From assembly GCA_964023275.1 (NCBI GenBank), contig OZ029928.1, positions 1,116,001 to 1,180,000 on the forward strand: DNA of 64,000 nt, in the 5' to 3' direction. The position numbers were made by a program, and so were the translations under genes. Source of the DNA: Norana najaformis. Taxonomy: Eukaryota; Annelida; Clitellata; Crassiclitellata; Hormogastridae. The notes beneath the pieces are model-generated. The model did not search any database and was not told the DNA's origin. It saw only the letters and a list, made by a program, of their open reading frames with translations. How positions within the stretch are numbered: position 1 is the first letter of the stretch; the number at the start of each line of letters is the position of its first letter. Below, in pieces: positions 20,489 through 54,120 of this stretch.

Positions 20489-20552
20489 ATGCAGATGAAG
20501 TTGAACACTCTGTTGTTGATTGTAGTGCTGGCCTGTGGACTTAATGGATTAG
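20489..20552 (+). CDS. Signal-peptide exon of plus-strand Ig receptor
   Basis: ATG at 20489 opens MQMKLNTLLLIVVLACGLNG followed by L and one extra base (G at 20552), then donor GTAGCT. This is a textbook signal peptide: a basic residue, a hydrophobic core LLLIVVLA, then small and polar residues. An alternative start is the in-frame ATG two codons later. Exon end phase 1 fits every acceptor of the plus-strand Ig, stalk and transmembrane exons. The next exon in order lies 22.7 kb away, beyond the gypsy, I-group and hAT elements. Confidence 0.75.
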
Positions 20553-21090
20553 GTAGCTTCAAATAAATCACAAGCTAAATGGTCAGATAAATAGGTCTAT
20601 GTAACTCCCGCTTTATTCTCATTATTATTTTTACATTGAATAATCTCCCAATTACGTTGTTGTCCATTTACGGATATCGATCTCAAAGTAATGTGGCGCT
20701 AAGTTGGCTTCAACACTCTACTATATCACGGTCACACATACAGGTATTGATCGAGCTCGACTTGGCTTGAATCAATATCGGAATTTGTGTAGATTGGCCA
20801 GCAGGTTTTAAACATATTGCAATTTTCCATAACATAATGTCTATGTTTAACTGGGTGTTTGAATTGCTTGGGTGTGTGTGGGCGATTTACAAAACTTTGT
20901 TGAAACTGATAGACGCAGCGATGGGTTAGTATGACGTCAGCGGGAACACATTTTATCATTTATGGGCGCTCGCGTAGGAAAGGTAGGGCTTAAGTGCAAT
21001 AGGCAAGCCCATACATGTCTTGCTGACTCGCGACCTTTTTGGAGCATAGAAGACGGTTGCAAATGCATTGAAAACAGTGTTGCCAATATG

Positions 21091-21286
21091 TTTTAGGGCA
21101 GTTGTTTGTTGTGCTCAGTCGATTCTTTGATTTATAAGGGACACTGATAATTGCTGACGATAGCGATTCTCAAATTCGTACGTTAGTAAGACTTTATTTT
21201 GGTGATCATGGTATAGTTTTGAAGAGTTTATCAAATTCTGTCGGTCTGTCTGTCTGTTTTAGGGCAGTTGCTTGTTGTGCTCAGTC
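21091..21286 (+). repeat. Direct repeat of 30 bp, 136 bp gap
   Basis: TTTTAGGGCAGTTGTTTGTT... at 21091-21120 recurs with one change at 21257-21286. The second copy is embedded in a GTCT-rich microsatellite. Confidence 0.7.
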
Positions 21287-21399
21287 TGTCTATCTCTCAA
21301 ACCATCCAGCCAGCCATCCATCCATCCGTCTTTCTATTTATATCTCTATCCATCTTCTTAACTGTCTTTCCGTCCGTCTGTTTGTCTATCTGTGTGTAT
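21236..21399 (+). repeat. GTCT/CATC microsatellite, left flank of gypsy insertion
   Basis: Runs of CTGT, CCAT and TCTG lead up to GTAT at 21396-21399. A matching GTAT/GTCT array resumes at 34537, so the two are halves of one microsatellite split by the gypsy element. Confidence 0.75.
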
Positions 21400-21681
21400 T
21401 GTTGCACGTTAGTCTAGCAGAAGTAAAAACACCCGCAGTAATTTAAACAGCATATATGTACAAGCAAATTCGGACTCACGTGTACACAGAAAAACAACCA
21501 AGGCGGTCCAGCGAACAGGAGAATCTTCACAAGACACAGCGTCAACTTCACACAAAAATGTCATCCACTGCGGGAGACAGAATCAACTTCAAAACACCTT
21601 CAAAAGAATATCTTCTGAGTCCGTCCCCTCAACACAAGAGAACGACCAACAGGGTCAAAACCAGAAGCCGGACTGAAATTA
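21400..21681 (-). repeat. Gypsy LTR, piece 1 of the interrupted copy
   Basis: Matches 34123-34404 closely, from TGTTG.ACGTTAG to GCCGGACT.AAATTA, then breaks off. The last ten bases, ACTGAAATTA at 21672-21681, recur at 27383-27392 where the LTR resumes: a target-site duplication of the inserted element. Confidence 0.9.
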
Positions 21682-21865
21682 CCGCGTTTGATAACATTTG
21701 TTTTACGACGTCTTCATATCAAGATGATTGACGTCATAACAAAAACATAGTACAGAGAACATGGTGTGCGTTAAACTATGGATTCCAAGACAGGTGAGTT
21801 AGCCGGGTCATCCTCCTTGTTTTTTGGCACAAGAACCGTCAGAGTTAGTCGGGTCAGATGTGTAA

Positions 21866-24800
21866 TCACATTTTCCTTCCGGATGCCTTCAGCCACTTGT
21901 AGATGTTATCTAAGCAGCTGGTTTGACTGAGGGCGGTGCGAAGATCGAAAGTCCATCTCCTGCGTGCACACTCCAGAGTGAGCTGGTCTTGAAACCCTGC
22001 CTGGGCAGGGCACTCCATTAAGAAATGGCCAACGATTTCTTGGACGTCGCACTAGTCGCAGTTTTCGGTCGCGTGCCAATACCATAGCTTCAACTGTGAG
22101 TTTAAGCAGTAGTGGCCTAAACGGAGCCTGATGATGACAATCTCCTTTCTCCGGTTTCGGTCGCTGTATTTTCGAGCAAGGCCCACATTCGGCTCAATGA
22201 CCCGATAGCCTGAGCCTGTGGCCGAGGGGGACCATTCTGCTTGCCAGTGTCGGAGGAAGTGGTCTCTGTAAATGTGTCGAGCTTCTCGGAATTCTCGGTA
22301 GGTCGGGAGATCGACGCTGGTACGATTTAACGCTTCTCTGCACAGACCGTCTGCAGTCTCGTTCCCTGCGATGCCCAGATGACCGAGGATCCAAACGATC
22401 GTTGCCGGCGACTGAACCCGTTGTCCGTAGTCATCCAATGCGTGCATCAGGTCCACGAGATGCTGCGGTCCGGACGCAGATTTATGTCGTTCCAGGCTCT
22501 CAGTCGCTTCCAGAGAATCTGAAAGACGACAACATGAGGTATGTTAGCGCTGCTGGCCCATTCTACTGTCCTCTGTATGGCCATCATTTCTGCCCTCAGG
22601 ACTGATGAGCCGTCACTCATCCGGTAGCTTCCATGGTGGTCAAGAGAGGGCACATAAAAAGAGCATGATACTTTACCTGCGGTGGTCTTTGACCCATCCG
22701 TATAGACAGCCACTCGCCCGTCATAGGTTTGGATGTGACCTTCAGCCATGGCTCTCGTTCTGGAAAGGATGTCGGCAGGTTTGAACTTCTCCTCCAGGGT
22801 GGTATTTATGATGGATGAGTAAAGTTGTCGCGGTGGTCGAGTAGAGCAAGTGAGCAGAGAAATCGTCGGGGGGCTACTTCTGCGTCGATCTGTCTCGCCT
22901 TGATTCGGATGGGATCCGTGTCGCGCTTTACTGCTTTCAGCTTCCATCCGCTGGAGACGACTTGTGTCGGGTGATCCGGGATGGCGTTTATCTTCATGAT
23001 GTACTCCATTACCTGCTGCTTGCGCCGGAGGTGTAGCGCAATTTCGCCGCAGTCGACCTGAAGGGCGGCCAAACTTGTTCCTCGAAGTGCTCCGGTGGCT
23101 ATCGTCAACGCTTTTCACTGGATAGTGTCGAGCGTTTTCTTCACGTTCGTCGTGGCACTTCACAGTCTTCTCGTAGCTCAGATGGAAGCCCCGAGCTTCA
23201 GCGGTCGGTGAGCTGAGGTTGTTCCGCAGCGAAAAAATTCCACGGCAACGGTCTTAGTTGTGGACATCTTGAAGCCCCACTCGTCAAAGAATATCTTCAG
23301 TTGATCGAGGTACGACTGCAGATATCGTTGGTTCGCTTCCGGATTCGGCCCTGCTCGCCAGATGGCGCTGTCGTCTGCGTAAAGTGAAAGCTTGACGTCG
23401 TTCTTTGGATACGGAATGTCGTTCATCGTGATAATGAAAAACACAAGGCTGATGACGCTGCCCTGCGGCGATCCGTTTTCCATGAGGAAGAGATCGGACA
23501 GCGCTGTTCCGACGCGAACACGGATCTTTCTGTCGGTCAGGAAATTCCGAATCCAGTTGAGCATCTGACCAGTGATGTTATGCTGGCGTAGCTTGTGCAG
23601 CATGCCGACGGTTCACATGAGGTTGAAGACTTTCTCAAGATCCACGAAGACTCCAGTGAGGGTGTACTTGGCGTGGATGTCGTCTGGGAGTCGTACGATG
23701 TGATCCTGGGAGCTCCTCAGCTTGCGGAAGCCGAACTGAAACTTGTTGAACTGGTTGGTTGATTCCATGTGCCAGTTCAGCCTGTCGGTAATTAATCGCG
23801 CAATCAGCTTGCACAGCAGAGAGGTCAGCGCAATCGAACGATATGAGTTTCACTCGTAGGCTGGTTTGTTCGGCTTCAGGATCGGGACGACGATGAAGTT
23901 CTTCCAGAGGGCCGGAAGTTTGCCCTGTTCCCATACCTCGTTGAACAGCTTCAGCAGAGCAAGCAAGCTGGGTTGAGGGAGCTGGTCCAGGATCTCGTAC
24001 GTGATGTTGTCTTCGCCGGGGCTCGAGTCCTTCATACACCGTAGGAGGGCGATTCGTAGAGCCTGTATGGTGAAGGGCTCGTTGAAGGGTTCTTCGTCAG
24101 ACGGCAGCTGACCACCGTGTAGTTCTTCGAAGTGCTCGACTTCAAAGTCAGTCTTGCGCTTCTGGAATTCCGCACTGTGCTTTTGATTGCTGCTCACTTC
24201 CGAGAAACACCTCCCGAAGAATTTCGATTTCTCCTTGTTTGTAGTGTATTTGATGTCCGTCCTTTTTCAGCGTTGGTATTGCTGGTTTCGATCTCACGCC
24301 GGACATCTTCCTCAGCGTTCCCCAGATCTTTTCAAGTTTCGACCTATCGCTAAGTGTCGTGCAATATTCTCTCCATGACGCCTTCTGGGCATTATTGATG
24401 ATCTTTTGGGTCACTCCCTTGATTCCGAGTTTTCTGCATCTTTTTCCTTGCATCGGTGCGCATCTTGACGTGTATTGAGCATTCTTCAGTCCAGCACGGC
24501 ACGTTCTTGTTGTTCCCTCGGGGAGGAGTAGTCATTGGGATGTGCTGCGACGCAATCTCCTTCAGCGTTTCCACGATGTTGTTGTAGCTCGCCTCGATGT
24601 CATCGGTGACGAGATCTGGTGTGGTTCCTTTTCTGCAGCCCTCCCTGAAGGCCATCCAGTTGGCCTTTCGGTAGAGTCATCTCGGTACAAAGGGTCTGCA
24701 ACCGAGACTACCTCCTCCACGCCGATGAGGATGGGCGAATGGTCACTTCCCATCGAGTCGTCCAGGACTGTCCAAGTGCACTTTTGCGCCAAGAGCGTCG

Positions 24801-25357
24801 AAGCCATCGCAAGGTCCAAATGACTGGAAGTTCCGTAGATATTACTGAAAAAGGTTGGAGTTCCAGTGTTTAGAGCGACATAGGCACTGGCTTCCGTGTC
24901 GCCTTCCAACTGTGACCTCCGCGCGTCAGTAGAGTTGGACCCAAAGACGGTGCTGTGCGCATTGAAGTCGCTAAGCACGATCGCCCGTCTCTCTCGAAAG
25001 AAGCGAGAGTATGTGTTCGGGAGTAGAGGTCTCTCCGAATCACCTTGGCGATGGCAAACGTTCACGATCGTGAGCTTCTCCGCCAATCCATTGATTGAGA
25101 TGACGATCGATTCCGGATCGTCGGTGGTGCCAGCCAGGGAGTAGGCGATTCCTTTCCTGACGAACATGTCTACTCCTCCTTCCTGCTCTCCCGTGGATCG
25201 GTCATATCGCACACAGGAGTAACCTGGTATTTCAAGACTATTCGTTGGTCTCAGCCATGTTTCCTGAACGCATATGACCGATGGCGGGTCGCGCATCTCG
25301 GAGATGCGGTGCCTTAGCTCCCCCAGGCGGGCTCTGAGGCTACACGCGTTTCACTGC
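21866..25357 (-). pseudogene. ORF2 of I-group element: endonuclease, RT, RNase H, zinc knuckle
   Basis: Domains in order on minus: endonuclease from about 25330 (VICVQETWL, VLSDFNAHS, GSDHSPIL), RT from about 24100 (NGSPQGSVIS and the catalytic box LYADDSAIW, intact), RNase H from about 22710 (VYTDGSK, LRAEMMAIQ, GHLGIAGNETAD), and a C-terminal CxxC..H..C knuckle near 22070 (CDECNVQEIVGHFLMEC). The product would copy element RNA into DNA at a nicked target. A TGA replaces the expected Trp in ILQ*NA at the very start, an in-frame TGA follows KPAYE, and several shifts break it, so it is inactive. The stop codon is at 21866-21868. Confidence 0.85.
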
Positions 25358-25382
25358 AGTATGGTGAGATCTACGTTGGGTT

Positions 25383-27147
25383 TCAGAGAGAGGAGTGGCA
25401 GACGTGGTTTTCTTGGCAAAGAAGTTTTCGCTGATTGCGCTGGTAAATTTGTCGGTGACCACAGCCATAGGGATGTTGAAGTGCGAGTGGATGGCTGCCG
25501 ATAACAATTCCAGCAGCTTCAACTGCTGGCATCGAGGCGTAGTTCCCTTTACCGACTTCCTTTCCGATCGCATAGGCTGCTTGGCACAAGGCTTGGAGAG
25601 CCTTGAGTTGTACGTATGTTTCTCTGATCAGAGTCTCACTTGTCCCCTGTCCTTGTGACGCATCAGGGGCGTGTGCGTGTTTTGGTTGTGTTTTCTCCTG
25701 TCCTTTGGACACACGATGGGTGTGTGCAATCGTTGATTTTGCTGCTACGTTTTCCCCTTCCTTCGACGCACCAGGGGCGTGTGCGTTTGCTGGCCGAGAT
25801 GTCCCCTGTCCATTGGACGCACCAGGGGCATGTTCGTTTGAAGGCTTTGTTTGGTCCGGCTTGCAGTGCTTCGTGTGCTCGCCTTCTGTCGTAGCAGCTC
25901 TTCCTTGTAGGACAGGCTCGACAGCTTCTGCTCCTTGACGCCTTCGCCAGAGCGTATTTCGGGCAGAAGCTGGAGAGCGCGTTGTGTGGCCCACCTCAGG
26001 CTGCGGATTTCGCTTGCTCCTTTTTCTAGCAGTCGGTGTACTTGTGCTCTCCGGCACAGATGCTGCACTTCTGGGACTTCGCATAGTGCTTTGCTATATG
26101 GCCAACCGAAAAAAAACGAAACAGCGAGTGGGTGGTGGCACATAGTAATATGTGATGAAGACAAGAAAGCCTATAGAAATCTTGTTAGGCACAATTGTAC
26201 CCGGTTCAAAATTGATGAGTACCGCTGTCGTCGGCACCTTCACGCTGTTCTGGATCTTGTGGATCCTCTCAGCTTTTATCACCGCGAGTTGGCCATGATC
26301 TTTAAGGGAACACATGATGTCGGTGTCCGATATGGTACTAAGGACACCTTTTATGACCTTTTGCACGTACTTCGTGCGACACCTAACAATTTTCCGCGGT
26401 TCCGATACCTTAATCTGGTACCCGCAGATACCAGTCGCCGCTAGAAGACGAGCTTTATGTTCGCCTTTGTTCGGTCCGCCAAAGTGCACGCGTACACAAG
26501 TGGCGGCCTTGGGCGGGGCATCGGCATGTAGCGGTCCATACATCTTGTTCAGCTCTTCGCGAACAACGCGAGCATTAACTTCTCTAACGCAATGTTAACA
26601 AATTCTATGTAAACACGATCCTACACCGATTGCTTGACAGCATTTGGGTCGGCAGTCACTTCAGTCCTTTCGTCCGTTCTCGTGGGTTGCGGGTTTCCTT
26701 TGGGCTCCGATGCCACGTGTTTGCGGGTACGCGGGGACACGTGGCGCTGTGGTTCCTCTGCAGGCCTACCCATTGGCGCAACCTTTTTCCCAGATTTACC
26801 TTGCTTGACCTTTTTCCGTGGTGCCAGGTCCACCTTTCCCGGGGTTTTCCGCAAGGCAGCCAAGGAAACCTTAGGGACCTTTTTTCTCTCTTCTCGGCCC
26901 GTCGTTCGTCCCTGTCGAGTTTCTTTCTACGGACGACCTCAAAGCCTGTTTCATCATCTGCCGAAGTACTATCGGCATCACTGTCAGTGACAAAATACGG
27001 ATTGCTACCGCTCGCTTCTGTGTCTGACATTTTCCTCTTCTTATTCAGAATTGGAACGTCAAGAAAATCCATACTCTCAGGTCTCTGCTCATAGGTGGCA
27101 GACCCCGAGATAGTGGCTTTCTCACCGGTGTTCATAACGAACGGCAC
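25383..27147 (-). pseudogene. ORF1 (gag-like) of I-group element
   Basis: Starts MPFVMNTGEKATISG at 27147. A basic, acidic-patch N-terminal region is followed by a frameshift after EKREK, then a nucleic-acid-binding region (TCVRVHFGGPN, IRFxxxx-like) and zinc knuckles. In this copy the first knuckle and its neighbours are interrupted. The C-terminal part has a repeated HAPGASxGQGT peptide from four imperfect copies of about 50 bp (25640-25840), then LKALQALCQAAYAIG. The second copy at 58461-60265 shows the same layout and keeps frame where this one loses it. Confidence 0.75.
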
Positions 27148-27382
27148 AGCAAAGGAATAAAAACCGAAAAGGATTTAAAACTATAAGTCTACAGTTATGC
27201 AATATCAATGTTAAGTCTGAAGTAAAATCCTGAAATATTTTAACACAAATAACGATATAGCTCACCGTATAAATTTTCGCCAAGTTCGCTGGATATCACA
27301 ATTCTCCAATTCAAGGTCGCGCTTTCAGGAACACGTGTGCTACCTTCGGCTGTCAAATCTACAGTTCTGACCTGATCTTTTC

Positions 27383-27522
27383 ACTGAAATTAACTCACAC
27401 TCGCGCCTTTTTATAAGCTGGAGTTCCCACCCGAAATGGGACACTACCTATTCTAACATCTGTTGCAGGTGGCACCTGCAGGCGGCATTCTAGCCTACCC
27501 ACCCACGCGTGCCACCTCCGCA
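27383..27522 (-). repeat. Gypsy LTR, piece 2 of the interrupted copy
   Basis: Matches 34394-34533: ACTCACACTCGCGCC, then TTTATA.GCTGG, GAAATGGGACACT, GCACCTGCAGGCGGCATT, ending CCGCA. Together with 21400-21681 it restores an LTR of about 411 bp. The TTTATAAGC just inside may be the LTR TATA box. Confidence 0.9.
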
Positions 27523-27693
27523 ATATACCCCCATCAGAAAATGAGGAAACCGGTAAGGTTACCGAAAAAACGCAAACCTTAACTAATAAAAACGCTATCC
27601 AAGCTCAATCTAATTATAAGTCACTTTAGATAAATACATCACGAAAAGTTCCACTTGCTTATCTTAACTATTACATGGCAATGTTTCTTCACA

Positions 27694-29282
27694 TCACTGA
27701 GCCGGAATGTTTAATACGCAAACCCAATAACAAAGTCCCTTCCTTTGTGTCCAACAGTCTCTATTTGCTGCAGGAGGACTCAAAATGTCCGGTAAAAGGT
27801 AAAAGCGTACAGGACGATGTTTAATGTTCAAAGAATGCTGAGTTAGTTCCAATCTCCATCGCAACAGTTTCTGATTTGTATTGGCCATTCTGTTGATAAA
27901 TTGGAGCGGACTATGATCAGTGTACAAAGTGACCGGCGCAGAACCAAAATATACGCTGAACGCGCGTACAGCCACCACCAAGGCCAACTCTTCTTTTTCG
28001 ACAGTGGAATAGCGCGTCTTGTGGATGTTCAATTTCCGGCTCAGGTAGCAGACCGGATGTTCCTCCTCGTCCGCGACCTGAAACAAACAAGCTCCCACAC
28101 AAAACTGAGATGCATCAACAGCCAAACGAAATGGGATGTCATAATCGGGCGGCCCTAAAATAGGACTCGATGCCAAGCGCGATTTTAAATCGACAAAGGC
28201 TTTCTCTGAATCTACAGACCAATAGAAATGCTGGCCTTTCTTTAACAATTCAGTCAGTGCCAAGGTTATTTCAGAGTAGGGATGTAAATATCTTCGATAA
28301 TAATCAGCCAGTCCAAGAAATGATTGCACCTGCTTCTTATCAAGTGGTCTAGGAAAATTTTGCAAAACCTGGACCTTTAGCATTGAGACCAATGTGATGT
28401 TCCAAAAAGTCAATTTCAGCTTTAGAAAAAACAAATTTTTTCAGATTTAGTGTCAATTTAGCATTACAAATTCTTGAAAACACCTTCTTTAAATGACACA
28501 AATGCTCAGACCAAGGCATATATTTCCACTGGAAATGACCCTACGGTGTAACAAACCCAGTCAGAGGAATGAATCTTTACCCAATAGGATTTGCCAATAT
28601 CCCTTTGTCATGTCTAATTTAGTAAGAAACTTCGCCTTTCCCATCTTATCGATTAACGTTTCAATACGAGGTATGGGAAAATGATCAGGGACCGTGACGG
28701 AATTTAACTTTTTGAAATCCGTGCACAAGCGACTCGACCCATCCTGTTTCTGTACCATTACTATTGGAGCAGCCAAAGGACTGTCCGATTCCTCAATTAT
28801 TCCGGTTTTAAGAAGTTCCGCTATTTCCTGATCCATCTTAGACAATAGCTCGGGATTTAATCTATAGGCGGTTTGCCGCGTTTGTTTGGCTCCGGGGATG
28901 AAATCAATATGATGGGATATTACATCCGTTTTTCCCGGGACCACACTAAACACACCTTCAAAAGAATGCAACAGTGCATTAATTCAGTTGTTTGAACCGA
29001 ATCCAAATGACATATGGAAACAGCTTCATCCAAATTAACAGTCTCATGTACAGACGCATTAGGTGTACAATTCGTATGCATAGGCAACACAGACGGAACC
29101 GCACTGAGACACAATATATTGTTATCTCTAGTCTCGTAACGTTTCATTAAGTTCACGGGCACTACACGCCTACTTTTACGGCGGTCAGACTTAGCGACCA
29201 GATAATCAACCTGACCTAGGCGCTCCAACACAGAATAGGGGCCACAATACTTAGCTTGCATTGGTTTCCCAATCAACGGTAG
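27694..29282 (-). pseudogene. Gypsy pol: end of integrase, reverse transcriptase, RNase H
   Basis: On minus from 29282: integrase C-terminal segment (QAKYCGPYSVLERLG, RRKSRRVVPVNLMKRY), a short linker, RT from 28971 (AYRLNPELLSKMDQEIAELL, LCTDFKKLNSVTVPD, FLTKLDMTKGYWQ) and RNase H from 28230 (LAVDASQFCVGACLF, STVEKEELALV, LYTDHSPLQF). Between FQWKYMP and WSEHL near 28530 the segment that should hold the YxDD catalytic box is missing, so RT cannot work. Frameshifts lie near 28960 and 28440. The integrase tail directly in front of RT shows the integrase-first order. Confidence 0.85.
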
Positions 29283-30991
29283 TGTTACGCCCGCCCCATC
29301 ACCCTTATGGGCTGAAGCGTGTTGTTGTAGGGGGTAGAATTGTCGCGACTCAATTCCGTAACTGCTCCTACATAGATTCGAACCCTGATCGTGAGAGATG
29401 GCAAATTGTACCCGATGACCTCTCTCTCCAAAATAGGTTGGAACCTTACTCTGTAATCGTGCACTACGCCTCAGGGTTGGTAATTCCTGTGGGGCAATAC
29501 CTTCAGTTGCCTTACCAGATGGCGGTTCAATTCCCGAACTTAGAGTGGTGATAGTGACCTTCGGGTGGAAGGTTATCACATCTTCTGATGGATAAGAGTC
29601 CTTTTCCCCTACAACAATCTTACTTTTCTCTCTCGTACAAATTTCTTGAGAAGGTTGGCGCAACATAAAATCTTGCGTTGTTCTCAAGAGTTCTTCCGAT
29701 AATCTTTCACTCATCCTCGACTGGCGCTGTATAATTGCTTCTTCGTGGCGCTCAATACTTTCCTTCATTTCCTTCCGAAACTCCTGGAACTCGGTTTGGC
29801 GCTGTATAAGTACTTCTAATATTTGTTCTTGCCAATTTGTCTGGCGCTGCATAAATTCAGTTTTAGCATCAGAAATGGACGCTGGTGAAGACACCATAGC
29901 TACATCTTCCACCTTCTCAGAGGCGCGTCACAGGCTGATGTATCGGCCATTCTTCACAACAATCACAGACTTGATTTCCGAATTAACAATCGACTATATT
30001 TACAATCAAAGAAATAAAATTGTCTTTAAGACCTTTCTTTAAACTTAAGTTAATTCTTATTTATCAACTCGGAGCATTTGATTAAATTTTCAAGTAAATG
30101 AAAAATCATAAAAACTCCCTGCTCGGTTCGTCACAACACAGTAGAGATGTCCCCTGTCCGACTTGAACGAGCGTGGAAGGTTGAAACACCCAACCGAGTC
30201 CAACAATTCCAGGACCCAAGCTTCGAATCCTGAAAATCTGGCGAGAAACCTTCAGCGCGGTAGATTCACGCTACAATACAGCATGAATCGAACCCCAGAC
30301 TCCAAAATTTTAAGTCCCTCTCGATTCGGAAATATAATTTCAACAAGCCGCTTTGAATCCACACAACTCAGTAGGAAATCGCCTCAGATTCGCCCTACAG
30401 GGTTCAACACTTATACCTATAAGGAAACTATCGAAATCCGTAAGATTCGAACTGTTGATTATCATCTATACCACCTGGGAACTCACGAAAGAAAACGCGC
30501 TCTGTCAATTGCGCAAAATTCTTTTATACTGACCAGTGAGGACTCTCTCACCTCCAGTCGCCGCGTGCGGCCGATAGCAGCTACTAGGCGGACCGAATGA
30601 ACCTGTCCGAAACGCCCTCTACCTAGCGAACTCGCACAGAGCGACCTCTACCTGGCGAACTCGTACGCAGCGACCTCTACCTGGCGAACTCGTACTGAGC
30701 GACCTCCACCTGGCGAACTCGTACGGAGCGACCTCCACCTGGCGAACTCGCACGGAGCGACCTCTACCTGGCGAACTCGTCCGAAGCAACCTCTAGCCGC
30801 CTTCACCCGTACTAGGCAAACTCATACGGAGTGACCTCTACCTGCCTCTCTATGCCTGCCTTCCGTATTCGAACTGAGTGACCGTGTACGGGGAAACCGC
30901 ACTGTCGGCTCTCTCTCCAAAAATCATTTACCACGTATCGGCAAGGGCATTTAGATAGCGCCACTTGAAACAAAAAGGCTGGTTCGTTTCA
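29283..30991 (-). mobile_element. TG...CA-bounded insertion in gypsy integrase, 1.7 kb
   Basis: On the plus strand the segment starts TGTTACGCC at 29283 and ends GTTTCA at 30991. GTAG precedes (29279-29282) and follows (30992-30995), a 4 bp duplication. Removing it rejoins integrase codons GDLVLLLL and PLIGKP in one reading frame, so the boundaries are well defined. Inside on minus is a frame up to 29912 with QRQTxWQE-type repeats like a gypsy gag start, and LRRSARLQSKVPTYFG, like a gypsy pol end. I did not find two matching LTRs, so it may be an internally deleted LTR element or a long solo LTR. Confidence 0.65.
30611..30786. repeat. Minisatellite, 29 bp unit, about 6 copies
   Basis: Units start at 30641, 30670, 30699, 30728 and 30757, each GCGACCTCYACCTGGCGAAC plus TCGTACGGA or a variant, preceded by a diverged unit from 30611. 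It lies inside the 1.7 kb insertion. Confidence 0.9.
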
Positions 30992-30995
30992 GTAG

Positions 30996-32188
30996 TAGCA
31001 ACAATACTAAATCACCTTGCTGGTACGAGATATTCTTAGTATGTTTATCATACCACTCCTTTGATTTCAACTGTGCAACCAACACATTCTCGTTCATCAC
31101 TTTAACAGCAGCTTGAATATGTTCACGCATATTCAACAAAATCAATCAAATTGGATTTTGACAAACCGTGCATGACATCATCATTCAACCAACTTTGTTT
31201 AATCAACTGCAATGGTCCTTTCACATGAAAACCAAAGAGTAGGTCAAAAGCAGAAAACCCAGTCCTTATACAGGTACTTCCCTATACGCAAACAGAACCC
31301 AAGGCAAAACCTCATCCTCATTGCCAGGAAAATCCTCAACAATTGCCTTTAACGTATCTTTCAATTTCCGGTGAAATCTTTCACAACACCCATTTGTCTG
31401 TGGGTGGTACGGACTTGCTTTCAACTGCACAATTTGACATTTATTGAGAAAAATTTGCATTATCTCCGACATAAAATCTGAACCACAATCAGACAAATTC
31501 TCATGAGGAAATCCAAACATTGTAAAGACAGAAATTAAAGCCTTTGCTACATCATGAGCGGTATGAGTTCTTAGTGGAAATGCCAGTGGGTAATGAATGA
31601 CCATATCAATCAACATTAACATGCACCTATTCCTGGATTTATCGCATGTATTCAATGGTCCGACTATATCGATTGCAACCGTGAAAATGGCTCGGAGATA
31701 ACCGGTAAGTTGATCTATGGAGCACGTGCAGTTTTGGCCCCCTTTCCCATCCTTTGACATACAACGCATGTGCGGCAGTAATGTTTAACAGTGCCAAAAA
31801 TACCGGGCCACCAGAAATGCCTCAACAAACGGTCCACAGTTTTCTGCGTTCCCAAATGACAGCTAGCTGGAATGTCATGTGCGACATAAAACAACTTAGC
31901 CTGTAATTTTGAGGGACAACAATATTGTTGTGTTCGCTCTAAGCCCTCTGGTGTGAACTAGTCTCTCCATAAAGGAACAAGTACTCCATTTACAATTGCA
32001 TACGAACGGCGCTCCATCGTGCGACCATAATCAGAGATAGCCAACTGATACAACGGCGCTAAATCCTTGCACGCCTGTTGCTTATGAATGAACTGGTCAC
32101 GGGATACAGTATCAGATATATTAATATCCGTATCAGACTGTTCGTCGAATAATATAACCAGAACATTGTCGTCAGTGAAATCACACAC
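30996..32188 (-). pseudogene. Gypsy integrase region
   Basis: On minus: a linker piece from 32188 (YGRTMERRSYAIVNGVLVPL), an HHCC-type zinc module near 31760-31880 broken by a frameshift (HLGTQKTVDRLLRHFWWPG), then the catalytic core 31769-31266 with AIDIVGPL, SDCGSDFMSE and HPQTNGCCERFHRKL, which supply the D, D, E triad. The domain continues from 31145 (EWYDKHTKNI, GDLVLLLL) up to the inserted element. Integrase joins the cDNA to host DNA. Frameshifts make this copy inactive. Confidence 0.85.
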
Positions 32189-32616
32189 TCCCGCTGAAGA
32201 AATTGTGTTTGTGTATGAGTATTGTGAACACTAGGTTATATATAATCTGATTCAATCTCTGCCTGTGCTCTGGCAACCACCGCACTATCCTTCGGTTTCT
32301 AATCTACTAACCCTATATCATTGCCAGTTAGCATATGTATTCCAGGAGGCAAGCTATCAATCAGGCAGCAAAGAACAGGGTCCTTCCAAAACCACTGTCA
32401 ACCCGAATTTCAACCAGTGGCACCTGCAGTTTGACTCCAGTAATTCCCTTTATTAATATATTCTCGCCCGTGTCACCGAACTCAGACGGTTAATCAACTC
32501 CCTACTGACCAAACTTTGCAAAGAGCCAGAATCTCTCAGCAAAACAGTATTACGAGATTTTTCATTGACATAAAACAAGGTACCAGTAGAACAAAACGGT
32601 AGTTAGCGCTTATCTA

Positions 32617-34006
32617 CTAGACAACCTGCAACTTCCGATTTGTTCGGAATAGCCCCCGCAACCAATTCAATGGTTTTAACTGTGTTTCTAGACCCTCCTG
32701 CTCCCGATTTCGCCTTAAACTGAAACGGGACGAAAGGGAGTGGCCAATTTTCTTACAGTAAGCACAGGTAACTGGCGTACTAAACCGTTGTTGAAATTTT
32801 CTGTCCCTTAGCAGCAAAAATTTGTAAGGAGCCCCTGTTGTGTCCTGCCTCAAATTTTGACCCAACCCAGAATAGTTTTGTGTTTCCCCGGGACTGGTTC
32901 CCCCGAGGACTCGACATGAAAGAGCTTGTATGGCGTACTCATCCGCCAACCTAGCCGCTTCCATGAGGGTTTTGGGCTTCTTGTCAACTATCCACTTATG
33001 TAATTCCACAGGCAAACTCTTCACAAATGGTTCCAATTTGAAAACTTCAAAAGCTCTGCCTAAATCAAGCGAAAGGCTGTTCCCCCTCGAGCCACCGTTT
33101 AAAAGGCAACGTCAATCGGAACGCAAAATTTGAATATGTTTCCAAATTCCCCATAACGTGTTCTAAAACGCTTTGGGTAGAATTCCGGCACACGGGAATG
33201 CGCATTTAGCAATGCTTGCTTTAAAATGTCGTAATCTTGGCATTCCTCAATTGAAAGTTCAGAAAAACTTTCTGTGTTTTTCCCGTTAATTGCGTGAGCA
33301 AAAGGGCGGTCTATTAATCCTTAGGAAATTTATGAATTGTCATGGCTTTTCAAAGGATAACAGTACTGCTTAACATCGGATTCATCAAATTTAGGACCCA
33401 ATTTTACAGCCGAGGCTATCTTAAATGTATCAGTTTCTCGGACCCGGCCAGTTTCTGTCTGAGTGCTCTCCAAACTTCTTAGTTCTAAATCATATTGTCT
33501 CTCTTTGTCCTCCATTTCAGCCAATAATTTTCTATCTTCCAACTGTAACTTTCTTTCCTCTCCTCCGGTTTGAACCTTCTCTCCCGCTTCTGCCTGTAAC
33601 TTTCTATCTTCCAAGCGCATTCTTTCTTCAACTTTTCTTGCTTCAGCTTCAGCTTTTAACCTTCTCTCTTCCGCTTCTTCCTCTAATTTAAGTTTAGCCA
33701 ATTCAAATTCGCGCTCTTTTCATTTCTGTTACCTTTCCGCCTCCTCCGCTTCCTTTTGGGCCTTAATTTCTATTTATTCAATATTTAGTCGCACATCCTC
33801 CAAATCCACCTTTTTCAAGGATAGCAATCTAAAGAAAGCTTTTGCAATTGTATTTTACTCAAGCCCTTGGTCTCGTGGCCCATTTTTTCCAACTCCTCTC
33901 TCAATTCATCGGCCGACATGTCAAAAACGTCGTTCAAGGCTATCTGCTTAGCAGCACCCGGAGACTTCATTTTAGAACTAATTTTATACTCCAAAGCGTA
34001 CAACAA
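32617..34006 (-). pseudogene. Gypsy gag region
   Basis: Three frame-shifted pieces on minus. 34006-33815: MSADELREELEKMG, a SAP-like leader. 33701-33330: a long charged coiled coil (EEEAEERRLKAEAEARKVEE). 33036-32617: a SCAN-like stretch (LPVELHKWIVDKKPKTLMEA) and a zinc knuckle CAYCKKIGHSLSS in which the last Cys is Arg. The layout matches vertebrate-type gypsy gags with N-terminal coiled coils. A protease should follow between 32.6 and 32.2 kb but I cannot see its motif. Confidence 0.75.
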
Positions 34007-34102
34007 TTGAAGGAATTAAACCGCACACAAAACTTTAGTGCCAAATTTCTACAACCCAATTTCAGGCAAAAAAATTTAGCAAAAAGAACGATTTTTACGA
34101 AT

Positions 34103-34120
34103 TTTAAGGACGAGCCTCCA
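34103..34120 (-). other. Candidate primer-binding site of gypsy element
   Basis: On minus, two bases inside the LTR, TGGAGGCTCGTCC follows. TGG at this position is the standard start of a tRNA 3'-end primer site. The matching tRNA is not identified. Confidence 0.45.
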
Positions 34121-34122
34121 TA

Positions 34123-34536
34123 TGTTGGACGTTAGCCTAGAAGAAGTAAAAACACCCGCAGTAATTTTAAATGGCATATATGTACAAGCAAATTTGGACT
34201 CACGTGTACACAGAAAAACAACCAAGGCGGTCCAGCGAACAGGAGAATCTTCACAAGACACAGCGTCAACTTCACACAAAAAGGTCATCCACTGCGGGAG
34301 ACAGAATCAACTTCAAAACATCCTCAAAAGAACATCTCCTGAGTCCGTCCCCTCAACACAAGAGAACGACCAACAGGGTCAAAACCAGAAGCCGGACTAA
34401 AATTAACTCACACTCGCGCCTATTTATAGGCTGGTGTTCCCGCCCGAAATGGGACACTCCTATTCTGACATCTGTTGCAGATGGCACCTGCAGGCGGCAT
34501 TTTAGCCTACCCGCCCACACGTGCCACCCCGCAACG
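34123..34536 (-). repeat. Gypsy LTR, intact copy (5' LTR of minus-strand element)
   Basis: Begins TGTTGGACG, ends CCGCAACG on the plus strand. It aligns along its length with the two pieces at 21400-21681 and 27383-27522. The outer side abuts GTATGTATG at 34537. Confidence 0.9.
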
Positions 34537-43279: not shown

Positions 43280-43603
43280 GTGTCAGAGGATTGATAACAT
43301 TGGCGCCATTGAATACAGTTGCTGAAGTTGGAGGTCAGGCAATATTAACTTGTACATCAAGTACAGCTCTACAGAACTGGGTGTTTACGGGAAAACGGGA
43401 AGAACTCGGGACAGCTTCGGCTCAAGACATTGCAATTAACTAGGTGGTTCAGCCTGGATTTACAGCTGACTATGAAGTAGATCGACCAGGAGGTAGCAGC
43501 AATGCATGCAATCTGATTGTCAAAGATACGAATATGCAACAAGCAGGACTATACGCTTGCTCAGACACTGTTTATGGACCGTCTGCAATACTTACAGCAA
43601 TAG
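43280..43603 (+). pseudogene. V-like Ig domain exon, copy 2, with in-frame stop
   Basis: Exactly 324 nt, phase 1-1, acceptor TTTTTCTTAG, donor GTACGA. It keeps AILTCTS, LQNWVF and LYACSD. The codon for the extra cysteine in copy 1 (INCVV) is TAG here at 43441-43443, two base changes from TGC. Everything after the stop remains open to the donor and is as well conserved as the part before it. It may be a dead exon skipped in mRNA, which costs no frame, or the stop may be an allele or assembly error. It is placed correctly for the first domain of the plus-strand receptor. Confidence 0.8.
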
Positions 43604-46502: not shown

Positions 46503-46850
46503 CTCAGTCTCCAACTATTATGTATAACGATACAGAAGAGGTAGTAGTGGAAAACGACAACGTCATCATCACATGTACTTTAAACCATAACGGAACTGTG
46601 ACATCAGATCCTACATTACGACCGTACTTCTATTGGACTGATTCGAATGGACAAAATGTTTCAAGTTCGTATAATTCAACGACCAACAATACAGTTGTTT
46701 CTCAGTTAACAGTTACAGCTGGTAGACAAGATATTACACCATACACATGCCATGTCAATTTACAACTTATACCACCAACAAATCCAAATTATGATAATAA
46801 TATTCCTACGGTTAACTGCAGCACCATTTCTGCTGTTATCGAAATACTCT
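46503..46850 (+). CDS. Ig domain exon 2 of plus-strand receptor
   Basis: 348 nt, phase 1-1; acceptor TTTATTTTCAG, donor GTGAGT. Ig pins: VIITCTL (B-strand Cys), YFYWTD (C-strand Trp) and YTCHV (F-strand Cys). An additional Cys lies in TVNCST near the end. Sequons are unusually dense (NDT, NGT, NVS, NST, NCS), fitting an extracellular glycosylated domain. The domain is open throughout, without lesions. I infer the second extracellular domain of a cell-surface receptor. Confidence 0.85.
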
Positions 46851-47218: not shown

Positions 47219-47243
47219 GTAAGTAAGTAAGTAAGTAAGTAAG
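47219..47243 (+). repeat. (GTAA)n microsatellite
   Basis: Six uninterrupted GTAA units. Confidence 0.95.
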
Positions 47244-47311
47244 ACATTTGTTAACAGGCCATGTGTCCATCGGCTGGACGAGGGATCGTAGACGTGGATG
47301 AGTCACTTCGG

Positions 47312-47521: not shown

Positions 47522-47599
47522 AGGTAAAAATAATCTACAAAATAAATGTCCTTGTAGACTTCATATTGTCTAGAATTATTTTACGACCTGTTAGCTTGG

Positions 47600-48965
47600 A
47601 TGATGATGAATTATTTTGATCACAATTTGCAATGGTTTGTGAGTCAAATTTTGCCGTGTTGATAAATTGGACGGTGGATTATTGACCAATCACGGAATTA
47701 CTGCGTTGGATTGGCGTCGCAGACAATCTACTATTCCCGACAAGTCGAGAATCAATGATGTGGCGCCGTAGTCATAACTTCTAATCTACGGTGGGTAATT
47801 GAGCAGACGAACCTTTAATAGAAGGTCTAATAATTAGCAAGAAAGAAGGGTGGAAATATCAGACGATGAATTTGGCCAATGGCGAAGTGACAACGATGTC
47901 GAATCTTCGAGACAACAATCGTTTTAGAGAGTCAGTTCACGGCTAGATGGTGGACGGTAAGGTCCGTGTCGAAATATAGTGTGACTCCGAGAAAGTTAGT
48001 CAGTTATTTGGATTAAATGTAAAAGTCAACTGCATTCTCGCTGATGGGCTGGTAATAGCTTATTGGTACGGCGATTAGCCTACGTTTCTGAGGTATTAAG
48101 ACATAGTTTCGTCAAGAAACTATCGTCTGGCAACTGTAGTTTTAATCTCTGTAAATCGCTGAAAATACGGACTTACACTTATAAGCCGAAAGTCATCAAA
48201 GAGCCTAAACTTTGGACTTTTTGATAAAAACGCGTGTCGTCAAAGATCCTAATCTTTTGACTGTATAGTACAGTCGTGTGTCGCAGAGGAGTCGTATCTT
48301 TTGACGATAACGAACGGATTGAATGGCTTCAAAGAATTCCTTTCTTTGGACTGCAAAGAGCAAGTCGCAGTAAAAGACTACGTGAGACTGTGAAACATCC
48401 TGTCTACACGGTATGTCGACGTGGTGAGATGAGACATTCGCAAAGAGGTCGAGATTCGGTGAGTGACAACACTTCATTCATCATATCTTCGTGGAAACTC
48501 ACAAGACAAAGATGAGAAAGTGAATCAATTGCAAGACTTCTTCTACAAAGAGTCAGAGTACCTGAAATATAAACGACCATAATTCTACGTGGGAGGTTAG
48601 GATTGTAAGGATGGGCTTAGTTAAGAAGCTGTTCTAATTAAGTGCTAGTTAAGTCTGTGACATTGGAATATATTTGATTGATTTTGTAACAAGTAACTTT
48701 GATTGCTTTATTAGATCAAATATCATTGAACATTATGGTTGTGGAAACAAAGAGCCATTGCATCACAATTGCAATTTCCACAAGATATTGCACACTAGCT
48801 TAAGTCAGGCCTATATAGATCATATTAGGTGACAAACCCCAAGTAGTGGGGTATCTACTTACTTGTAAGCAAGCAAGTAAGGACTAAGTTGTCGCGATTG
48901 TGGCCTAACAAAGAGAGCCATACACACATACATAGACATTACAGAGTGGGGGTTACAGTCATAAA
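47600..48965 (-). repeat. Interspersed 1.3-1.5 kb repeat, copy 2, inverted
   Basis: Reverse complement of the 39576-41120 family in block order, ending GGGGGTTACA near 48955. The two copies face each other across 6.5 kb that holds Ig exons 1 and 2. Confidence 0.65.
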
Positions 48966-49943
48966 AGGAAAAATGAAAAACTCCAATTCACATTTGGTTC
49001 CCGACCCTTTTTCATCGTTCTGTTCAAATCAAAGTTCAGCTAGGCAGCCTTAACCAAGGTTGAGCGCATAAGGGTTGGAGTGGCGTCTTCTGGATCGATC
49101 CGCTGTCTCCATCAGAATTCAATCATCGTTCATTCTTTTATTCATTCATTCATTCAGAGCCGCAAAGTCGTGCAATCACTCCGACCCTCTTCTGGCACTG
49201 TTCCTCGTCCGCTGGACTTCGGCTCCGTGGAGTCGTCTGCGCTGATTCCGAGCAAGTAACTCGGGCTGTTTTTCCGTCTTCACGTCCTTCCTCAGATCCT
49301 GGTGGCTGGCCTGGCCTTCTTGACCCGTTGAGGATGAAACCACAGACAGTTCCAGATTTTTCCAGTTCACAGAACATTTACTAGGTCGTAATCCCCTCTA
49401 TCCTTTGACAGGAAGACATTCGCCCCCTTCATTTCGTTCAAGAGATTAACATTTACTGTCTTTTTGGTCCTTCGAGAACAATAACTCCTCTGTCCTTGCA
49501 CCGATAGTACAATACAATTCAGTACATCTTTAATAACATATCCCACATATATGTCCATAACAAGCGCGTCAACGTCTAGTGCACCATAAAAGAAAGATTC
49601 CTCAATGGAAAAGGCATTTATGTCATTAAGCATAAGAGATAATTGTCAATCTCCAAACTTATTCTTACTAGTTTTCATCCAAGTTTGAAACTTGGTAGCT
49701 TTATCAAAATTTTTGGTGATTAAAACGTATATTGTTTGATCTTTCATCATAACTTTGTTAGCTCATTTTATAAATAATTAGAATAACAGCGTATGTTCAG
49801 ACTGTGGCTCCAGTTTCTCATCGTAGATGCATGCCAAGCGGTCCTGGAATTATCACCTAACAAATTTGCATGTAAATCCGTTCGTGGGGCTAATTTTTGA
49901 GTGGAAGCATTTTGCGAAAATGGATGTTTTCGAAACTTTGAAG
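48966..49943. other. Intron, no gene seen
   Basis: Minus-strand open frames at 49150-49377 and 49367-49633 have no recognised domain. (ATTC)n at 49136-49158. Confidence 0.4.
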
Positions 49944-50207
49944 ATTCTCCTTCGATACCGGAAATTGTGGCCATAAGTTCTGGATTTGCTGCATGCGAAG
50001 CAAAAAATTTAACGTGTTACTCAGATGCAAATCCTCCGCCAAATTACAATTTGGTGGATTTAACATCTGGAAATGTAACAGATGCACAGAAGATCATTGC
50101 AGAATGCGGAGTTAGCTACACCTGTAATGCGACAAACATAATCAGAAATGTCATCACTGTCAAATCATCGATGTTCTATGAAGCCTCGATTACAAATAAA
50201 ACATGCA
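49944..50207 (+). CDS. Ig domain exon 3 of plus-strand receptor
   Basis: 264 nt, phase 1-1, acceptor ACTTTGAAG before ATTCTCC, donor GTAAGT. An alternative in-phase acceptor, TAATTTTTGAG before 49902, would add 14 residues including two cysteines. The domain runs SPSIPEIVAIS, NLTCYSDANPPP, SYTCNATN. It has both core cysteines, but the C-strand Trp is replaced (NYNLVDL). The shorter spacing suits a C2/I-like fold. NLT, NVT and NAT are sequons. It resembles exon 4 in CY.DA.PPP.Y, so the two probably arose by duplication. Confidence 0.75.

Positions 50208-50868: not shown

Positions 50869-50872
<4 letters not shown>

Positions 50873-50902
<30 letters not shown>
50873..50902 (+). repeat. (TC)n microsatellite
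   Basis: About 15 uninterrupted TC units, 68 bp before the exon 4 acceptor and in the sense of a polypyrimidine tract. Confidence 0.95.
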
Positions 50903-50905
<3 letters not shown>

Positions 50906-50970
50906 ATCGTGATGAGGGCGCCAAATAATTGAGGAGGAAGTTTATCAAGGTTTTGCAGTTGCCTTTATAG

Positions 50971-51231
50971 AATTTCCTCGTGCAAAAAATATGCAGATTT
51001 CTGGACAGCCTTGCAAGGATGATTTTTGCGAATGTGAATGCAAAGCTGCAACTATACTATGCTACGTGGATGCACATCCGCCGCCATTGTACGAATGGCT
51101 TCTTCCAGATGGCAGCCGAGTAGAAGGCCAAACTGTTGAAGCTTATATCAGTAGAATATTCGTCTGCAGGTCTTACAAATTAATAGATGGATGGTACATG
51201 GTGGAAGCGTATACAAGTGTCAATATGTCAG
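50971..51231 (+). CDS. Ig domain exon 4 of plus-strand receptor
   Basis: 261 nt, phase 1-1; acceptor TTGCCTTTATAG, donor GTTGAA, which is weak because positions +3 and +4 are unusual. The domain has ATILCYVDAHPPPLYEWLLP (B-strand Cys and C-strand Trp) and SRIFVCRS (F-strand Cys). Upstream lies a cysteine cluster, CKDDFCECEC, not normal for an Ig domain and perhaps forming extra disulphides. If the donor is not used, a TGA follows at once (TCA GGT TGA) and would give a secreted form. The membrane-proximal Ig domain by position. Confidence 0.7.
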
Positions 51232-52028: not shown

Positions 52029-52073
52029 CTTATCCTCCCATAACAACAACGTATTCTACGGATAACACTTCGC
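52029..52073 (+). CDS. Stalk micro-exon of plus-strand receptor, 15 codons
   Basis: 45 nt between acceptor TTTTTCTTGACAG and donor GTAAGT, both strong, phase 1-1. It encodes YPPITTTYSTDNTS plus split codons: Pro/Thr/Ser-rich, as expected for a short extracellular stalk open to O-glycosylation. The call rests on splice signals, phase and position. Confidence 0.6.
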
Positions 52074-52079
52074 GTAAGT

Positions 52080-53133
52080 AACTATGTTCATTTTTACCTA
52101 ATCAACTAGACTTGAGGTTTCGCGCCTTATTCCGTAATAGTCCATTCTCATGGGTTTCGCTGCCTTTATCTTTATGGCGATTTCTCTTTCTCTTACATCA
52201 TTTCCCTACAAGTTAATACATTTAATGCTAGATTGCCACGCTTTTAGGTGAATTTGTGATTTGTTGCTATACAAATGTCGGTTATTTTTAATAATATTAA
52301 CATCCTAAATTATGTCGACGAATATCGAAGTTTGAGTCGATCGGGCTTCGAATCGTAGACTCATCCGATTTGTAGCATAGTGTTAACTCGAGAAAAGACA
52401 CGCAGTCTTGACGCTTTTCTAACGCTTAATTAATCAAAATCAACAGTTCAGTCACGACAGTACTTCGATCACGATATGAAACTTTGCATTCACGAATACA
52501 TAACTTACTATCACCAGCAACCATCAAAGACTTCTGCAACTCAATAAACTGAGTATACGACTAACGATCTCTGCAGCATCTTTACGCGCTCTCCATTAAA
52601 ATGCTTTCGCGATAGGTTTTTATAGGATTTTTACGCCACATACACAGACAAGTCTAGAGACGCCTGTGACGCATTTCTAACATCACATAATACTCTTCAA
52701 CCCCCAAGGGATAAGTGTGAGCCGATCGGCGTCACATCAACCCTAGCTCGTTTTCGATGCGTGTTAGAAAGACGCAACCACCTGTCAGAGGCAAGTGACC
52801 ATTGCGTAGCAAATAGACATTTCCAGTATCAACCCCGCGCGATCGATTCGTGCCAGAACAAGTCAATAACCGATGACTCGTCGACGTAACGGTAGAGAAA
52901 ATTCCGGCTTAGCGCTGGATGCCCGCCAACCAGTCACAAACAAATCAATTACTAAATGATTAATCCTTGTGACGTCATAGAAATTCCGATATAACCTCGA
53001 GCTTAAAACTTGCTTATTCAAGAGCGGAAACATTGCGGAAACATTTCACAAGAAATGATTAATAAACTTATTTATAATTGATTTTTCAAATTTTAATGGC
53101 ATTTTCTTTAGCTGAGCTGGGCAGTCTATATAT
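52080..53133. other. Intron, no element recognised
   Basis: GC-richer patch at 52640-52960 with scattered CG dinucleotides may be an old transposon, class unknown. Confidence 0.35.
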
Positions 53134-53553
53134 TGTTACGTGCTAGTCCTAAGAAAAGGAAGTAAACTCGCTTGGGTTGAGATAAAATGTATATTTACAC
53201 TTGCAAGAGGTTATAGCACATAAACAAAATACCTGACATCAGACAGAACTTCGACGGCTGTTTTGAAGCCAAAAGTCGAAGTCTTCACATCAGCGAACAA
53301 CTTAAACACAAAACCTTCTCAGGTTCCTCCAACAGACGGAGGACCTTTAGGCTACATCAGCTCGTAAAACGGAGTCTTGGCGACTAACAGAAACAGAGCC
53401 ACGAAGGACTCGGCCTATCTTAACTAGCCAAGCTCAGTCAACTGAAAGAAACTTCCCCTTTTATAAGGATTCTGGGGTTACGCCCCCCAAAGAGACGGCT
53501 CATCCTTCAGTCACTCCTTACATCCGGGTCTTCTATGTGGGCTGACTCTAACA
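53134..53553. repeat. Solo LTR in the intron before the transmembrane exon
   Basis: 420 bp starting TGTTACGTG and ending CTCTAACA, a TG...CA pair with TGTTA/TAACA ends. ATAT flanks both sides (53130-53133 and 53554-53557). CTTTTATAAGG at 53458 may be its promoter box. It lies 93 bp from the transmembrane exon. Confidence 0.8.
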
Positions 53554-53646
53554 ATATACAATCATTCATATATAATATTTTTGTACTGTCATTACAGGTC
53601 TCGACTTCAAGAAGGAATTTATTATTTTATTTTCGGTTTATTTAAG

Positions 53647-53745
53647 AATACTCATCTTCTGAGACTGCAGCAATCGTGTTGGGTGTCCTACTCGCAATTG
53701 TCATCACAACCAATGTTTTCAGCCTTGTTCTTTTTCTTCGCAAGG
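53647..53745 (+). CDS. Transmembrane exon of plus-strand receptor
   Basis: 99 nt, phase 1-1; acceptor TTTATTTAAG, donor GTAACT. In the frame set by phase 1 it reads YSSSETAA, then a hydrophobic span IVLGVLLAIVITTNVFSLVL with FL, then the stop-transfer residues RK. There is one Asn but no charged residue in the span, so no obligate pairing with a charged adaptor helix is implied. The frame differs from the longer open stretch starting at 53581, which is coincidental. Confidence 0.8.
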
Positions 53746-53989
53746 GTAACTGTTTTCTTGATAGATGTAATGATAAGACACGTATTCACCATTTCTACAT
53801 TGCTTTGTTACTTGGTATTGAAATGTACCAAAAAAGAAACATCTAGTTATTACAATTTTAATTGTTATTATAACATTACAATTATTTCTTTATATACTTT
53901 GTCAGTTTATATTGGAAATAGAGTTTACGTTTATATTTACAACCTCAGTTTTTATTTATTATATTTTACACTAAAACTTTTCTTAAAAG

Positions 53990-54120
53990 GTGCTGTCAAC
54001 AGAAGAGATTCCAATGAGCCTGAAGTAACACAGCCGACAAGTAGTTCAGAAGAACCGCACTACCAGGACCTCTCCAAAGAAACGTTGGCAAAACCTGAAT
54101 ACGAAGAACTTCATCACTAG
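53990..54120 (+). CDS. Cytoplasmic tail exon with ITAM-like tandem YxxL, ends the receptor gene
   Basis: 131 nt; acceptor TTTTCTTAAAAG, phase 1 entry, TAG at 54118-54120. After AVNRRDSNEPE comes a Ser/Thr-rich patch (TQPTSSSEEP), then YQDL, nine residues, YEEL and HH at the end. Two YxxL units this far apart fit the ITAM consensus YxxL/I-x6-12-YxxL/I, whose tyrosines are phosphorylated by Src-family kinases and bind the tandem SH2 domains of Syk-type kinases. Acidic residues next to both tyrosines fit kinase sites. Each YxxL alone could also serve as an endocytic signal. No ITIM (I/V/LxYxxL) core is present: His and Glu stand where the aliphatic residue would be. Confidence 0.8.

Follow-up and report, generated by a model that had tools for sequence, protein, structure and literature searches.

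A predicted family of clustered immunoglobulin-superfamily receptors with ITAM-like tails in the annelid Norana najaformis

Described invertebrate receptors with tails of the immunoreceptor tyrosine-based activation motif (ITAM) type are few, and in the sources drawn on here they come from Hydractinia, Botryllus and one oyster receptor. The Alr genes of Hydractinia encode clustered immunoglobulin superfamily (IgSF) proteins with V-set and I-set domains (PMC11999971), and candidate genes of the Hydractinia allorecognition complex carry ITAM or immunoreceptor tyrosine-based inhibitory motifs (ITIM) (PMC12065747). In the passages of the same source, the FcoR proteins of Botryllus are type I molecules with a V-type and two C2-type immunoglobulin (Ig) domains, a transmembrane segment and a tyrosine-motif tail, and form a large family in which the motif type varies (PMC12065747). 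As for the Pacific oyster receptor CgIgIT2, the review text gives it five Ig domains, a transmembrane segment and a tail termed an ITAM (PMC11999971). Here we describe a gene of comparable plan in a 64,000-nucleotide stretch of the annelid Norana najaformis (contig OZ029928.1, here C16; C16:1116001-1180000; hereafter the window), from a genome of 608,420,607 bases in 17 contigs. We consider it probable (about 0.62) that this gene is a member of a clustered family of type I IgSF receptors with Syk-coupled, probably activating tails, a family predicted here from genomic sequence.

The receptor family, its tails and the Syk-type kinases

The gene consists of eight exons on the + strand, from 20489 to 54120 (Table 1), with phase 1 at every internal border and a joined frame that stops at the TAG of the tail exon. 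Once joined, the exons predict a type I membrane protein that begins with a hydrophobic signal, carries four Ig-like domains followed by a Thr/Ser/Pro stalk, crosses the membrane once and ends in a short tail. An earlier note, made from the window's letters, had listed a signal exon, Ig exons, a stalk, a transmembrane exon and a YQDL-x9-YEEL tail joined by phase-1 borders, and every one of these parts was recovered where the note had placed it. Its assignment of the gene to the Ig superfamily is borne out by Pfam, as the joined model exceeds the cut-offs of Ig_3 (39.9 bits, cut-off 30) and ig (26 bits, cut-off 21.8); no Ig exon passes a cut-off singly. Pfam found no fibrinogen or lectin domain of the FREP, CREP or GREP type in the joined model, which matched Ig families and, at E 0.23, a DUF. 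A sequence search of the PDB with Ig2, Ig3 and Ig4 gave no match up to E 10. Four pattern matches of Ig1', the homologue of Ig1 in an inverted partner gene, in viral contigs and 35 of Ig3 and Ig4 in bacterial and archaeal genomes yielded no confirmed relative, an outcome in keeping with an animal gene.

The transmembrane and tail exons define a compact family. Queried together against the whole genome, they gave 24 matches, 12 to the tail and 12 to the transmembrane exon (one of these weak, E 0.141), all on the + strand of C16, and nothing elsewhere in the genome at E up to 1. All 12 tails show the ITAM-type arrangement of two Yxx(L/I) motifs 6-12 residues apart in one tail (Yxx[LI]x6-12Yxx[LI]), here at a spacing of 9-10; the first motif is always YQDL, and the second is YEEL in 11 tails and YEGL in one. 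Counting the bare motif was rejected as evidence, since it occurs 22 times in the window's six frames. Chance is nevertheless excluded, because all 12 paralogous tails keep the motif and the splice borders are shared: AG at the tail acceptor and GT at the transmembrane donor in 10/10 copies, and AG at the transmembrane acceptor in 9/10. Residue shuffling recreated the tandem motif in 0.03-0.28% of 20,000 shuffles for each of four tails. Moreover, the transmembrane and tail exons sit behind Ig exons in all nine C16 paralogues read at 10 kb, and the earlier proposal that the ITAM-like tail belongs to the same gene is thereby supported.

Tail identity to the window's copy is 77-95% across these nine paralogues. 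In L015-L017, Ig3 and Ig4 are 35-39% identical to those of the window and the tail is 77-81% identical. The ratio of mean pairwise NG86 dN to mean dS (nonsynonymous and synonymous divergence) is 0.25 for the tail (44 usable pairs out of 45, from 10 copies), 0.31 for the transmembrane exon (10 copies), 0.27 for Ig4 (7 copies) and 0.35 for Ig3 (5 copies), values which indicate that purifying selection acts on the tail. The Ig exons reach further. An Ig4 query found 13 places in the genome, of which seven are close (the window's included) and lie on C16. At least 76 matches were obtained with Ig2 (C16 38, C8 14, C12 12, C2 6, C11 4, C5 1, C1 1) and at least 94 with Ig1' (C16 27, C2 23, C8 16, C12 12, C1 9, C11 4, and one each on C5, C6 and C7); these Ig counts are lower bounds, a few matches are pieces of one exon, and other Ig genes may account for the weaker ones.

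Sister tails were found on two further contigs. A gene traced on C12 has Ig2, two further Ig exons, a probable transmembrane exon and a tail with YEEL-x12-YEEL; this tail type has seven matching places, all on C12, one of which was read. On C8, the tail of L018 reads YEEL-x17-YQEL-x7-YQEL, its close pair being spaced 7, and the type has five matching places, all on C8, two with an internal stop and two read. Altogether, tandem YxxL motifs are present in 14 of the 15 tails read (12 on C16, one on C12 and one of two on C8).

The same genome holds the kinases that such tails would need. Because the 131 matches of a search for the SH2 family were too unspecific to single out Syk, human SYK itself served as query, first with its tandem SH2 region (matched to PDB 1a81) and then with its kinase domain (matched to PDB). 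Genome-wide, the SYK query located four loci with tandem SH2 exons in protein order, and at each of them kinase exons 49-73% identical to human SYK follow 4-6 kb behind. The SH2 exons were read at the C14 locus, the other three loci being judged by match position. Against the PDB, the C14 tandem matched SYK at 1.2e-37, ZAP-70 at 2.5e-32 and SHP2 at 2.3e-16, and its first C-SH2 exon matched SYK at 1.1e-13 and ZAP-70 at 3.5e-8. These matches indicate that the genome encodes four Syk-type loci, each with two SH2 domains followed by a kinase; vertebrates have two Syk-type genes. Two of the four loci adjoin on C7. One study reports Syk-type kinases from several invertebrate phyla, with Syk/Zap70 homologues in invertebrates that have CARD-CC/Bcl10, and upstream receptors of an ancient ITAM type are inferred there (PMC5978004).

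In the mechanism that we propose, a ligand would bind the outer V-like Ig domains and cluster the receptors, a Src-family kinase would phosphorylate both tail tyrosines, and a Syk-type kinase would dock through its tandem SH2 domains on the doubly phosphorylated tail, whereupon the kinase would activate the cell. An adaptor should be dispensable, because the receptor carries a signal motif itself and spans the membrane with an uncharged stretch. Any part in defence or allorecognition would be conjecture by analogy with comparable systems.

Weighing the Syk-coupled receptor against its alternatives

Several observations weigh against a functional, Syk-coupled receptor in the window. Canonical ITAM spacing is 6-8, and the motifs stand 9-10 apart on C16 and 12 apart in the C12 tail; only the C8 tail of L018, at 7, falls within that range. 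In the other C8 tail read, L019, NQEL replaces the last motif and the second tyrosine of the close pair is lost. The YxxPhi pattern of endocytic signals accommodates both YQDL and YEEL as well. The borders of Ig4 as placed are less certain than the others, with AG at the acceptor in 3/7 copies and GT at the donor in 5/7, and in several copies the tail acceptor is poor in pyrimidines. Finally, the continuous gene of the earlier note stands from Ig2 to the tail, which is without a stop, and fails in Ig1, where an overlooked in-frame TAG breaks the eight-exon reading.

This stop and its surroundings raise the strongest alternative, namely that the window's copy is a recently dead member of a working family, lost through the Ig1 stop, with a first intron laden with transposable elements. 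The codon is TGC in the two copies compared at codon level, Cys stands there in the five aligned rows covering the site, and of the 94 Ig1-like matches genome-wide only 2, the window's among them, contain a stop. Polarised with L054, the Ig1 branch carries 15 nonsynonymous to 1 synonymous changes and the partner branch 7 to 3, with 6 unassigned. Between Ig1 and Ig1', dN/dS is 1.08-1.9, and the 22 amino-acid differences compare with 20.7 +/- 2.3 expected without selection. Such changes could reflect diversifying selection on a recognition domain or relaxed constraint; because of the stop, loss of constraint is favoured for the window's Ig1. Intron 1 (20553-43279) extends over 22.7 kb, more than half of it transposable elements.

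Nevertheless, the remainder of the gene does not look dead. From Ig2 to the tail the frame is fully open, with zero stops in the 369 codons compared with L009, and dN/dS is 0.31 (NG86) or 0.38 (YN00) against L009 and 0.35 (NG86) or 0.41 (YN00) against L010, figures that exclude the stalk and include a few codons upstream of the corrected Ig3 border. The splice sites of Ig2, the stalk, the transmembrane exon and the tail match their counterparts in the closest copies, and the passage from TGC to TAG requires two base changes, which makes a single sequencing error unlikely. Since all internal exons both begin and end in phase 1, a transcript that skipped Ig1 would still encode an in-frame receptor with three Ig domains. 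The window's copy would thus either skip Ig1 or be recently dead, and we hold its death to be quite possible, at somewhat under even odds. At C16:1184281, a further 4.3 kb past the window, there is an intact Ig1 with 94% identity to Ig1'.

The fit to YxxPhi leads to an unlikely second alternative, in which the two motifs would recruit AP-2 for the endocytosis of an adhesion or scavenger receptor, without Syk signalling. Conservation alone cannot separate trafficking from signalling use. The near-constant distance between the motifs in all 12 C16 tails, the acidic residues around both tyrosines, the tandem YxxL in two unlike sister-cluster tails, one of them spaced 7, and the four Syk-type loci all argue against this alternative. 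Less probable still are inhibitory or dual receptors that would recruit SHP-type phosphatases in place of Syk. In the C12 and C8 tails tested, one site apiece fits the ITIM consensus [ILVS]xYxx[ILV] (SGYEEL and VAYEEL), which would suit such receptors, but none of the tyrosines in the two C16 tail types does, and in all 12 C16 tails position -2 of both tyrosines is taken by Pro, where the consensus asks for Ile, Leu, Val or Ser. Last, a transmembrane and tail belonging to a neighbouring gene, which the earlier note had named as its own refutation and which the length of intron 1 might suggest, is most improbable given that Ig3 and/or Ig4, transmembrane exon and tail follow in this order and at similar spacing in 9/9 C16 paralogues, with the stalk between in 8/9 (not found in L017). 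The Syk-coupled receptor family accordingly remains the reading that we prefer.

Gene layout, inverted partner and surrounding elements

Table 1. Features of the window (positions within the window) and Syk-type loci elsewhere in the genome (contig positions)
Feature	Position	Strand	Remarks
Signal-peptide exon	20489..20552	+	MQMKLNTLLLIVVLACGLNGL; ends phase 1; weak donor G|GTAGCT
Ig1 exon, V-like	43280..43603	+	in-frame TAG 43441-43443 replaces conserved Cys codon
Ig2 exon	46503..46850	+	Pfam Ig_3 2.1e-05 alone; acceptor AG and donor GT in 7/7 copies
Ig3 exon	49944..50207	+	264 nt, phase 1; acceptor CTTTGAAG|AT in 5/5 copies compared
Ig4 exon	50959..51231	+	itself and 6 close copies, all on C16
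Stalk exon, short, Thr/Ser/Pro	52029..52073	+	
Transmembrane exon	53647..53745	+	19-residue hydropathy mean 2.54; no charge inside membrane stretch; pass ends LRK
Cytoplasmic tail exon	53990..54120	+	EEPHYQDL-SKETLAKPE-YEELHH, stop; ~43 residues, ends EEPHYQDLSKETLAKPEYEELHH
Ig1' exon of partner, intact	17201..17524	-	90% DNA identity to Ig1 over 357 bp
Shared intron flank, 81 bp	17558..17638 (-) vs 42738-42818 (+)		92.6% identical
Candidate partner signal exon, uncertain	19225..19285	-	MQMKSSFDSLFYARLLLFTA|G, donor GTAAGT, phase 1
Decayed Ig2-like exon	4363..4543 (approx.)	-	stops and frameshift; 72.6% DNA identity to Ig2
Long terminal repeat (gypsy-like) element, split by nested non-LTR element	21400..34534	-	RNase H and integrase domains on minus strand; inside intron 1
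Syk-type locus	C14:22712181-22721917		SH2 exon matches 22712181, 22712969, 22713799
Syk-type locus	C7:1232096-1240505		SH2 exon matches 1240365, 1239697, 1238937
Syk-type locus	C7:1217187-1224928		SH2 exon matches 1224785, 1223876, 1222584
Syk-type locus	C1:32494048-32507472		SH2 exon matches 32507332, 32501993, 32501371

The signal exon, with a top 9-residue Kyte-Doolittle mean of 3.6, is the most hydrophobic of the four candidate starts in 19286-21400, two of which are nested in it. Since elements make up more than half of intron 1 and the corresponding interval of the partner gene, from its candidate signal exon to Ig1', measures 1.7 kb, the long distance to Ig1 is a weak argument against this exon. 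For Ig3, an acceptor at 49902 was rejected, being out of frame in two paralogues (L009 and L010). The tail frame is open upstream across the transmembrane-tail intron and beyond (53467-54120, +), which looks like chance because the transmembrane exon uses another frame.

The partner, which had escaped the earlier note, is inverted relative to the receptor gene. Its Ig1' carries Cys at the site of the stop in the plus copy, and its signal candidate, which starts at 19285 (-), 1.2 kb from the ATG of the plus gene, is weakly hydrophobic (top 9-residue mean 1.87, under the cut-off of 2.0). Similarity within the Ig1 pair, intron flank included, far exceeds that within the Ig2 pair, a difference suggesting that copying or conversion of the Ig1 exon took place after that of the rest. 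No partner copies of Ig3, Ig4, the transmembrane exon or the tail were found in the window. To the left of it, an Ig2-like exon stands at C16:1113419 (-), and no transmembrane or tail exon for the minus-strand partner was recognised in the adjoining 5 kb (L064). Ig1', the only domain folded, was modelled by AlphaFold2 as a V-type Ig fold (predicted local distance difference test score, pLDDT, 68.8; predicted template modelling score, pTM, 0.67). Antibody and T-cell receptor variable domains dominate the 50 Foldseek rows listed for it (best E 1.5e-4) and make up most of its matches in a PDB sequence search (E 0.023 or worse).

Head-to-head pairing as a rule of the family is suggestive at most. 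Divergent adjacent Ig1 pairs closer than 30 kb number 6 on C16 against 3.4 expected with shuffled strands, a count attained in 5.8% of the shuffles; with the distance limit lifted, C16 has 6 against 6.3 expected, and C12 has 3 against 1.8, reached by 21%. Within two head-to-head pairs, C16:347322-/362104+ (L042/L043) and C16:653488-/666054+ (L044/L045), the Ig2 exons have identical translations, as if by recent inverted duplication or gene conversion.

Repeats surround the gene. A non-LTR element is present in two inverted copies, 21824-27191 (-) and 58417-63998 (+), 94-97% identical, which flank the Ig-to-tail exons of the receptor and could support inversion. An inverted repeat occupies introns of the gene (39694-39928 and 48614-48845, 73% identical), and tandem copies of about 80 bp, 86-91% identical, lie at 2702-2942. 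An open frame of 579 codons at 5863-7602 (-) has a weak zf-AD match and probably belongs to a repeat family, because stretches resembling it recur in L060 and L064. Neither an Rfam scan nor a tRNA scan of the window gave a match.

Comparison with described receptor systems

The likeness to Hydractinia Alr, a polymorphic allorecognition locus, is one of plan, and the present sequence gives no sign of polymorphism or allorecognition. The Botryllus FcoR proteins differ, in the passages available, by a sushi domain and by tails with an ITIM, a hemITAM or a core tyrosine motif, where the tails described here have two full YxxL motifs (PMC12065747); Pfam found no sushi domain in our joined model. 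In a snail, Biomphalaria, PTC1, PTC2 and linked clusters likewise group diverse single-pass membrane genes, some with Ig domains, PTC2 genes are described as having no known domain except the transmembrane segment, and no ITAM is described in the passages concerned (PMC7494358, PMC10875847).

Among vertebrates, the closest analogy is with the activating Fc receptors and the KIR/LILR clusters. FcgammaRIIA joins Ig domains and the signal motif in one chain, and the receptor predicted here would work alike, as a one-chain ITAM type; any kinship considered is that of the Ig fold only. A broader proposal would see an independent KIR/LILR-like paired system in an invertebrate, in which the C16 cluster would bear ITAMs only, the sister clusters of C12 and C8 would mix an ITIM-type tyrosine with YxxL motifs, head-to-head pairs would exchange their outer V-like exon, and all would feed an enlarged set of four Syk-type kinases. 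We regard it as speculative and rather doubtful.

The name CgIgIT2 denotes an inhibitory motif, in disagreement with the review that terms its tail an ITAM. This oyster receptor is a single gene in the review text and is likened to the present family by description only (PMC11999971). In the listed titles and abstract beginnings of open-licence papers, no protostome cluster of ITAM receptors like that of C16 was seen.

Beyond the few examples named at the outset, three clusters of this genome together hold 24 places that match one of three tail types (12 on C16, 7 on C12 and 5 on C8). Together with the four Syk-type loci, these tails provide concrete receptors and kinases for direct testing, and they open the question of a repeated origin of clustered, fast-evolving Ig receptors whose activating tails are self-contained. 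The family is best read as new in detail and of a kind already known from Hydractinia, Botryllus and the oyster, to which it is likened by plan and from their published descriptions.

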